Part shown: positions 22,801-25,800 of the stretch, in pieces | How positions within the stretch are numbered: the first letter of the stretch is position 1 | Layout: each line of letters opens with the position of its first letter | Assembly (NCBI RefSeq): GCF_008831285.2 | Contig: NC_045149.1 | Span: 20,475,035 to 20,539,034, forward strand | Reading direction: 5' to 3' | DNA length: 64,000 nt | Origin: Nymphaea colorata | Taxonomy: Eukaryota > Streptophyta > Magnoliopsida > Nymphaeales > Nymphaeaceae | Program-made: the position numbers and the translations under genes | The notes under the pieces: model-generated | Seen by the model: only the letters and a program-made list of their open reading frames with translations | What the model was told of the DNA's origin: nothing | The model's database searches: none

Positions 22801-25800
22801 TACCCGTGGGAGATTGCAGCCCGAGAGAGAGAAGGAACCGCTTCCGTCGAGCGACATTGACGATCGTTTCCCCAATCGACATTCCGTTCACTCTTGGGGC
22901 TGATTGGGAATCCGGTGAAGATATTACCTCTCTCTCTTTATCGTTCCTTTCTAGATAGAACTTGATTTTTCTCTCGTTCTTGTGATTCTATCCAAGGATA
23001 TTACTGCCCATTGGTGCTCTCCGTTGTCATCGGTGCCTCTCTTGTTGTATCGCTGCTCGTGCCTCCTGTTGGACTATCTGTGATTATGGTAGCTTCTTCA
23101 TCTATAGACGTTATGGCGGATTGCCGTATGGGAGAGTGGATCATTGACAGTGGCGCTACTCACCACATGACCGGCGATCCTAAGGTCTTTCATGGGTATA
23201 AGCTTTCATCAGGAAATGATCGTGTTTTCCTTGCCGATGGTTCATCTATCTCTGTGGTTGGAAAAGGGAGTCTCCCACTTTTGAACAAGTTCTTAGTCCA
23301 CAATGCTCTACATGTTCCTCATATTCCCTTGAATATCTTGTCGGTTAGCAAGATCACGAAGGAGTTAAATTGCGAACTTATATTTTCCGCTGACCGCTGT
23401 GTCATGCAGGACTTAGTGACAGGGAAGAGGATTGGGATTGGTCTAGCTTCTGACGGGCTCTATCGTTTACCTATGCGTGCTGCTCAGGCTCTCAGGCTCT
23501 CATGACGGCAGTCAGCCAAGCCACGAAGAATAGAGAGGACTCCCTTCAGTTGCTTCTACGTTGGCATGAGCGCCTTGGACACTTGCCTTTTGGCCTTCTT
23601 AGACAGTTGTTTCCTGATATATGTTCCAGGTTAGATATGACTATGGTGTCTTGTGATGTCTGTCACCTGGCCAAACATGTTAGGGCTTCATACCATTTGT
23701 CTAGCCATCGGTCTAATGAGGTATTTGCCATGATTCATTCTGATGTGTGGGGGCCTGCAGGGATTCCTTCTTGTCATGGTTTTCAATATTTTATCACCTT
23801 TATAGATGATTATTCTCGTAACACTATTGTCTACTTGCTGAAAGACCGTAGTGAAGTTCCTACTGTCATAGAGACTTTCATTGCTTATGTGGAAACTCAA
23901 TATGGAGCATCTGTTAAGACATTTCGATCTGACAATGTTCGAGAGTATATGTGTCAGTCTGTTGATAGCTTCTTTCGAAAAAAGAGAATTGTTCATAAGA
24001 CTTCATGTAGTTATACCCCTCCTCAAAATGGAGTTGCTGAACGAAAAAATCGTTAGTTATTGAATATGACTCGGGCTCTTCTTTTTCAACGTCATGTTCC
24101 AAAAAAGTATTAGGGGGATACTGTGCTGACAAGTGGTATCAGAGCAGACGATTTCTCGAAGGGAACTTGAAAGATGAGAACGCTGCGATGATAACAAACA
24201 AGTGGTTCAAAGAAAAATGTTGGCTTGTTTGGTGCCCTAAGGGTTCGGGCATGTTCGTCGGACACTGGTTCAGGTGACCGCGTTGGTGTTGGCCAGATAG
24301 AGATCACACGTTCCAAAGATGGTGTCTGGGCGTCAGGAGCAGAAGGGCCAAGAGAGCCGCTCGCTGAGACAGATAGGGTGAGAACCGACGTGGAAAAGGA
24401 TTGTCCAGGAGGGCAAGTGCCCTTAGTGTTGACATGTCTCGAGGAAGGAGCATGTGCATGGGTTGGCAACACAGCTTGGAAATTTGAGACTTAGTGGTCG
24501 TCGGAGATGTTCCGGACTTTACTAAGGAAAAGTGCAAATAGTGATAGAAAAGTGGGATGATGTTAAGGAATGGACTAGAGGCAAAACACCCGATAAGGCA
24601 ACTAGCCACGACGTGACGGGTGCGTCAACCAGACGAACGGATGAAGGCTCAGTTCAAAAGAAATCAAGGGAACGGTAGCTGAACTTCTATCGCTCGGGGC
24701 AAAGTCATTGAGGTCAGTGACGATTTTGGTGGTGGGAGAGTGTTGCCGGTCGACTGTGTCTGGCTCGGCCAAGCCAGTAAAAGGTGATGCTGCTTGGCCA
24801 GCTTAGGCATAATTGGAAGGCATGTGGGATCAATCGGTCGCCGAGTCAAGCAGAAAGCAATGCACGTGGAATGTGCAGCGCGGTGGTGCAGTGACAAGGC
24901 GTTTAAATGCATCAAGATCAGCAGTCCCTTTGGAAGTGCAAGTCCGTCGTTGGGGAATCCAGTGGGTTCCCCACGCGTAGTGTTTGGATACACAAGGGGG
25001 TGCGCGTGGGTTAGGGGCAATTCCCCCAGTGGGCGTATACGCTGCGTTCCACAACCGCGTAGAGTCACGCGGGGGTGAGCAAGTGAATGCTCATCGTCGA
25101 GTAAGGCGATGGTCGGCCGCGTTATTTAATGACATATAGTCGTCAACTGGCTTCGGCTGGGGACTTCCTCCCAAGGAAGTCTACCCCCACCCAGATTTGG
25201 TTTGGATGTAGATAGGCACTTAGAGGAATGGCGAAGTTCTGACAGGGCCTCATGGCCACGGCTTGCCGATGGTCGACAATGGGATAAACCTGGGTGATGG
25301 TGTGCCGAGTGCTTAGCACTCCTCGTCTAATCCACAGTCCCGAAGAAAAGATGAATGCTTCCGCTAGCTTAAGAGAGAGACGGCTGGCCGAAGGCTTTGG
25401 GGAACGCCTTCGGCGCCGCGCGGGCTGGAGAAACTCGGCCCGTGACAAGTGGTATCAGAGCGTATCTTATAAACCGGTTGCCTAGTCGTGTGTTGAATGG
25501 GAAGACGCCTCACTCTCTGTTACCGGGGAGTCGTGAACCTTTCTCTCTTCCACTCAGAGTTTTTGGTTGTGTTTGCTTTATTCACAATCATAGTCCTCAC
25601 ATTAAAAAGCTTGATCCAAGATCTATTAAGGGCATTTTTTTAGGGTATTCTCCCACTCAAAAAGGGTACAAGTGTCGAGACCCTTCCACTGGTCGGGCCT
25701 ATGTTACCAAAGATGTCACTTTCCTTGAACATGTTTCCTATTTTGGTGAGAATCCTCTTCAGAGGGAGTACTCTATGTCACGGGAAGAGTATTCTCCGAG

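Follow-up and report, generated by a model that had tools for sequence, protein, structure and literature searches.

An interrupted Ty1/copia element

The window, a stretch of 64,000 nucleotides of the Nymphaea colorata genome (NC_045149.1, positions 20,475,035 to 20,539,034), contains a Ty1/copia retrotransposon on the forward strand (21804-28042) that is flanked by its own 5-bp target-site duplication, ATTTG, read from the sequence at 21799-21803 and 28043-28047. The 5' LTR (21804-22064, 261 bp) is followed by a primer binding site (22065-22076, TGGTATCAGAGC), and differs from the 3' LTR (27788-28042, 255 bp) by six substitutions in 253 aligned sites and one 6-bp indel. The Pfam domains of the element are: Pol_BBD; GAG-pre-integrase and the integrase core (rve), which lie 5' of an insert (23502-24050); the SH3-like carboxy-terminal domain of the integrase, which lies 3' of the insert (25463-25978); and the reverse transcriptase (RVT_2, 26171-27787). 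The integrase site of this copia family occurs at at least 129 places genome-wide.

No Gag domain was found by Pfam in the host pieces scanned, which between the primer site and the protease region comprised the two longer open reading frames. About 1 kb without a recognised domain separates the LTR from the protease region, and the layout from LTR to protease is matched in a sister copy of the family that was read (L082, L036). The family appears to be without a Gag domain, and the Gag of another element may help it to spread. A perfect 36-bp tandem duplication (25849-25920) lies between the integrase and the reverse transcriptase. The element is adjoined by a minus-strand open reading frame of 469 amino acids (28187-29596), which has no Pfam match; with this frame alongside, the copia may occupy an intron or adjoin a gene. 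Elsewhere in the window, an exon-like open reading frame (9937-10284) has a match to the arginase family.

Layout of the insert

The insert (24131-25461, 1331 nt), putatively the captured cDNA unit of a donor element, interrupts the host copia between the integrase core and the SH3-like domain. It lies on the forward strand and consists, in order, of: the last nucleotide of an LTR, A, with a 2-nt AG spacer (24131-24133); the left copy of the donor primer binding site (24134-24145), which we take to be complementary to the plant initiator methionine tRNA; an internal region without a recognisable gene (24146-24730); a polypurine tract (24731-24740, GGTGGGAGAG); a single LTR of 707 bp, TG...CA (24741-25447); and AG with a second, 12-nt copy of the primer site (25448-25461), for which the template could be either the primer tRNA or the donor. 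No gene was seen in the internal region of the window copy, whose open reading frames are all short and chance-like.

A 19-nt repeat, TGACAAGTGGTATCAGAGC, bounds the insert (24127-24145 and 25443-25461). No further copy is present in the window on either strand, even at one mismatch, and two matches were obtained in none of 100 shuffles. An earlier note, made from the sequence alone, had described the layout as primer site, internal region, polypurine tract, LTR and primer site; this layout is real, its parts being found between the two 19-nt repeats. The note was also right that an element with one LTR and a primer site at each end, permuted relative to the genomic copies, is not a normal integrase insertion. 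An ordinary nested LTR insertion would have an LTR at both ends and a 5-bp target duplication, and the window has neither. A normal nested insertion that later lost its left LTR and was rearranged on the right, or an assembly error, is in our judgement highly improbable: the TGAC at the LTR end could mediate deletion of the left LTR, but the right end passes through the LTR into the primer site without a duplication, so that several independent events would be needed, and such a layout is found in none of the seven normal copies read.

The donor family

The donor LTR is represented by 42 stretches at 94-100% identity among the 40 of 309 candidate matches that were scored, the window itself being the 100% one; many of the matches are paired, approximately 1315-1320 bp apart. 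All five full-length copies that were read have the normal order LTR-AG-primer site-internal region-polypurine tract-LTR, with an internal region of about 609 bp, and are flanked by 5-bp target duplications (GGTAC, CTGAC, ATCGG, AGCAC and GGGAT); one of the five, C1, is about 85% identical and carries small changes. Both solo LTRs that were read also have duplications (CACTG and GTGTG). The normal copies confirm the LTR boundaries at 24741 and 25447 that the earlier note had proposed.

Two relatives carry internal regions of their own. In the first (L083), an LTR that is 94% alike over 688 nt is followed by an open reading frame with the Pfam domains Ty3_capsid and Retrotrans_gag; in the second (L087), a gag-like open reading frame was judged by eye. 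Because L083 shares the LTR and bears gag domains, the donor belongs with the Ty3/gypsy elements, and it looks non-autonomous and non-coding.

The donor family also contains tandem LTR-internal arrays: L079 (C8), with four LTRs between CGACA duplications; L080 (C3), with three LTRs between CTGAC duplications; and L081 (C2). The presence of such arrays, together with the single LTR of the insert, is in keeping with an origin from a one-LTR circle or a tandem donor array that was opened or copied into a break, either by end-joining of a circle with filled staggered ends or by strand invasion and copying past one lap. The insert amounts to one donor period and 9 nt net. It equals the 1316-nt period plus a 15-19-nt repeat, whereas a simply inserted circle would measure one circle length, with both joints at the same point; a staggered, filled-in opening of a circle could still produce it. 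However, copying would have had to go beyond a single lap, or else a circle would have had to open with a long stagger that happened to coincide with the primer site (19 of 1316 positions, 1.4%), and the three arrays, which are 82-93% like the insert by piece, are too distant to have been the template. It also leaves unexplained the pieces running from LTR position 251 or 257 to the primer site at two other loci (L084 and L085, see below). We regard this origin as improbable.

The joints and the empty site

The uninterrupted copia site is matched 129 times genome-wide at three or fewer mismatches to the predicted site. In relatives it reads TGAC-CAGTGC-GTATC, and the 100 listed of the 129 sites read TGAC, then C or T, then AGTGCGTATC, or close variants of this. 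The segment 24135-25459, which the earlier note had proposed to check as a possible normal part of the copia family, is no such part, given these 129 uninterrupted sites and the unique junctions described below. In all 100 listed sites, the position of 24131 is occupied by C or T and never by A. On this comparison, the A at 24131 most probably comes from the donor, as the terminal base of its LTR; that the host acquired it by a mutation of its own is less likely. Since the listed empty sites never have A at this position, the host word would be GACCAGT, not GACAAGT; the word GACAAGT that was thought to be shared by host and donor is partly donor sequence, and the real microhomology on the left is TGAC only (24127-24130), common to the empty host site and the donor LTR end. 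The right junction has the microhomology GC (25460-25461). The joints accordingly read: host ...GTGCTGAC; donor AAGTGGTATCAGAGC...LTR...AGTGGTATCAGAGC; and host GTATC.... The split does not fall at a codon boundary, as had been supposed: on the left it cuts an ACC codon, and on the right it lies within or behind the GC of GCG.

Perfect microhomology is thus 4 nt on the left and 2 nt on the right, and a simulation with random breakpoints gives P = 0.0027 for at least 4 nt and at least 2 nt, respectively. Imperfect microhomology extends to 8 of 9 positions on the left and 5 of 6 on the right (CAG[T/A]GC). There is no host duplication at the joints: 1331 nt replace CAGTGC or, equivalently read, 1329 nt replace CAGT, and the net gain of 1325 nt equals the donor period of 1316 plus 9. 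The absence of a duplication, the short microhomology and the small host loss are the features expected at the joints of a captured intermediate.

The left and right joint patterns each have one exact match in the 408-Mb assembly, which is the window. The left pattern has 118 further matches, those listed carrying two or three mismatches, and among 20 loci cut out from the 119 matches, donor sequence is present only in the window (L009) and in a normal copy (L013). The right pattern has no further genome match at three or fewer mismatches. The composite, which the earlier note had thought might exist as a family, was not found elsewhere in this assembly.

Both joints, as well as the layout, could also be explained by a template switch in a shared particle, from copia RNA to the donor and back to copia, with the composite then integrating normally between the ATTTG duplications. 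Along such a path, the minus strand would leave the copia RNA at GC-GTATC for the donor primer site and copy U5-R; after a normal R-to-R jump, the donor would be copied to the border of U5 and primer site, and the strand would return to copia at TGAC. The imperfect homology at both joints is consistent with this path, and a donor without a recognisable gene and a host whose scanned pieces lack a Gag domain may both need foreign particles. On the other hand, two jumps at one host position are needed (more easily made if the host RNA was broken there), and no second copy of the composite was found in the assembly. Ty3/gypsy and Ty1/copia elements normally use different particles, which tells against a switch between this donor and this host. 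We consider a template switch rather unlikely.

Ages of insert and host

Terminal branch lengths are 1.21% for the LTR and 1.20% for the internal region of the insert; for the host they come to 1.67% on the left flank and 0.68% on the right. The host LTR pair differs by 2.4%, that is, about 1.2% per LTR, and the ages of insert and host are equal within error. In four full-length donor copies, the LTR pairs differ by 3.1-5.4%. No close sister of the insert was found among the donor copies compared, the best genomic LTR match being 97% (C13) among the matches scored. In an LTR tree, the insert groups with one of the LTRs of the C10 copy (support 0.73), on a very short branch of 0.1%; the C10 copy was not accepted as the template on these grounds.

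These distances suggest that the insert entered at the time of the copia integration, within error, or later; the later entry is allowed because the donor tip is an upper limit only. Equal ages also fit formation before integration, which counts against capture, and the nearly equal tips are a point in favour of a template switch. A switch of host subfamily, as a sign of template switching, was not seen: in the trees both host flanks fall into one 12-member group.

Other joints at the primer site

Three genome-wide pattern lists were compared: LTR-primer site-internal region (58 matches), LTR-primer site (162 matches) and primer site-internal region (45 matches). For the second list, 100 matches were listed and the 53 of donor type were compared, leaving aside the 62 other matches and the listed places of a related CAACTGG/CAATTGG-type family. 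The screen is anchored at the primer site and sees joints there only. Six of the 53 places lack donor internal sequence next to the primer site: the window, L083, L084, L085, L086 and L087. L083 and L087 are the relatives with their own internal regions, which leaves the window, L084, L085 and L086; the break lies right after the 12-nt primer site in the window, L084 and L085, and inside it in L086. Among the 45 places with primer site and internal region, two lack a normal LTR joint (L089 and L090); L090 was rejected as a left-type joint, being an ordinary joint with a 1-nt insertion. There are, then, four other donor-group loci joined at or beside the primer site: three in which LTR and primer site are followed by foreign sequence, and one that starts at AG-primer site.

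At L084, about 33 nt of a copia LTR are followed by donor LTR positions 257-707 and the primer site, and then by copia sequence from the position of 23468, continuing through the uninterrupted site. This copia, of the family of the window host, keeps an ordinary 3' LTR (L084 with L088), and GTACC is present at both ends if the first LTR base is taken as a T-to-C change. Since completed reverse transcription gives two equal LTRs, the 5' LTR most likely became a hybrid only once the copia had integrated, by capture of donor LTR-primer-site DNA during repair of the copia; that the comparable case most likely arose in this way is a further point against a template switch in the window. In L085, a piece of integrase in antisense orientation (E 9e-05, which falls short of Pfam's cut-off) adjoins LTR positions 251-707 and the primer site, and other sequence follows.

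LTR position 251-257 is a recurring breakpoint of the donor LTR (L080, L084 and L085) and might mark the start of transcription; no clear TATA box for such a start was seen by eye. A start of R at this position, with strong-stop DNA forming the left end of L084 and L085, is attractive and was set aside without a clear TATA box.

The third locus with foreign sequence, L086, is a gypsy/copia chimera (positions 1140-3401 of L086): a gypsy-type integrase SH3 domain, donor internal positions 358-608, the LTR and the primer site are followed by the leader and the gag region from a different copia family. Its joint lies inside a stretch of primer site shared with copia, and two normal copies that were read have the copia LTR end there. 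The locus looks more like the result of plus-strand transfer to a wrong partner than of the capture of an end at a break, and in this it counts against capture; its joining of a gypsy LTR to a copia leader through a shared primer site also lends some support to a template switch in the window. The CAGGT in L086 was rejected as tRNA-only bases: it belongs to the leader of the copia partner, and 18 other places match at one to three mismatches.

L089 has no left LTR: it begins with AG and the primer site and runs to the exact end of its LTR, with no duplication and with an internal deletion. It looks like a one-LTR linear molecule with one correct end; by itself it could also be read as the loss of a left LTR, which would weaken the case for capture and favour a nested insertion with later loss. 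In a rough control, a primer-site match about 290 nt upstream is missing from 8 of 56 mid-internal matches; the one of the eight that was read (L093) is genuinely truncated, its left end lying 24 nt inside 24132-24740. By this rough control, 0.17-0.28 left joints are expected per stretch of 6-10 nt, against two that were seen (P 0.01-0.03). L084 and L089 suggest that cDNA ends of the donor family enter chromosomal DNA, and capture and misdirected transfer may both occur in this genome.

Origin of the insert

Just before plus-strand transfer, the DNA of an LTR element consists of primer site, internal region, polypurine tract, LTR and a copy of the primer site; in the next step, the two primer-site ends pair to give a non-covalently closed circle. 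The layout of the insert matches the intermediate that precedes plus-strand transfer, and capture of this intermediate is the simplest account. We therefore favour, with modest confidence, an origin of the insert by capture: a non-autonomous Ty3/gypsy element would have left a reverse-transcription intermediate, and this would have been end-joined into a break in the copia. The explanation draws on the layout of the insert, the normal donor copies, the short microhomology, the small host loss, the single copy and the recurrence at other loci.

The donor cDNA would have been arrested just before plus-strand transfer, or melted just after it. Its minus strand would end at the primer site or a few nucleotides past it, and its plus-strand strong-stop DNA would end in a copy of the end of the tRNA primer. 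The primer-site ends, rather than pairing with each other, would have been joined by an end-joining pathway to a double-strand break in the integrase gene of a copia already resident in the chromosome, using the 4-nt and 2-nt microhomologies with the loss of about four host bases. The earlier note had proposed a template switch between co-packaged RNAs or a one-LTR circle; a by-product of reverse transcription is indeed very likely, but both of these routes rank below a linear intermediate.

Two details of the insert weigh against capture. No tRNA-only bases were found in the right primer-site copy, which ends after 12 nt and presumably before the tRNA and donor sequences would diverge, and without such a base this copy does not prove the intermediate. 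In addition, past the AG the donor sequence includes one LTR nucleotide or more (A 24131), which takes it slightly beyond the textbook end of the minus strand.

A broader proposal, which we put forward tentatively and consider doubtful, is that in this plant the ends of incomplete gypsy cDNA at the primer site are joined to other DNA repeatedly: the end-joining machinery whose task is to pair them for plus-strand transfer would sometimes connect them to chromosomal breaks or to copia cDNA, and the resulting scars (the window, L084, L085, L086 and L089) would represent failed transfers and gypsy/copia chimeras.

Comparison with known systems and significance

Ty1 cDNA is reportedly captured at double-strand breaks in yeast, as is said to have been found by Teng (1996), Moore and Haber (1996) and Yu and Gabriel (1999). 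In a further yeast study (PMC10802722), Ty1 reverse-transcription intermediates are joined at breaks with little homology, and 40 of 56 3'-LTR insertions carry cDNA-only nucleotides after the LTR. The insert resembles these cases in both respects, an LTR followed by extra nucleotides and little homology at the joints. It differs in being a natural plant fossil in which the whole internal region is kept and the host is another retrotransposon, and in that its extra nucleotides are indistinguishable from the donor's own primer site.

The complex LTR elements of Triticeae, attributed to template switching with an LTR shared end to end (Sabot and Schulman 2007, PMC1950507), likewise combine two elements in one, with a flanking duplication and similar outer LTRs. 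The window has both of these outer features (ATTTG; 6 substitutions in 253 sites). It does not have the order LTR-core-LTR-core-LTR with two complete cores; the second unit instead lies inside the host core, in the integrase gene; both of its ends carry a primer site, and it shows no integrase signature.

In Drosophila and mouse systems, plus-strand transfer is reported by a review (PMC12786077) to use factors of alternative end-joining and microhomology at the primer site. The non-covalently closed circle of Drosophila mdg4 described there is similar in that two primer-site ends are handled by microhomology end-joining; the mdg4 ends join each other, whereas those in the window would have joined a chromosomal break. 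The tandem arrays of Cassandra, a small non-coding LTR element (PMC7215508), resemble the LTR-internal arrays L079-L081. The window, in contrast, has one unit and a second primer site, no outer-LTR array and an LTR of 707 bp.

No published plant case with primer sites at both ends was recognised among the papers listed by searches of the PMC library. Capture is a mechanism already described in yeast, to which the insert, with its four neighbours in the donor group, would add a variation that arose naturally in a plant. The insert appears to be the fossil of a copying step that is usually too short-lived to leave traces. If this is true, scars in which both ends carry a primer site would provide a sequence-only record of failed plus-strand transfer in plants, and they could be counted in any assembly and in repair mutants. 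Capture would then also be a route by which Ty3/gypsy and Ty1/copia sequences are joined.
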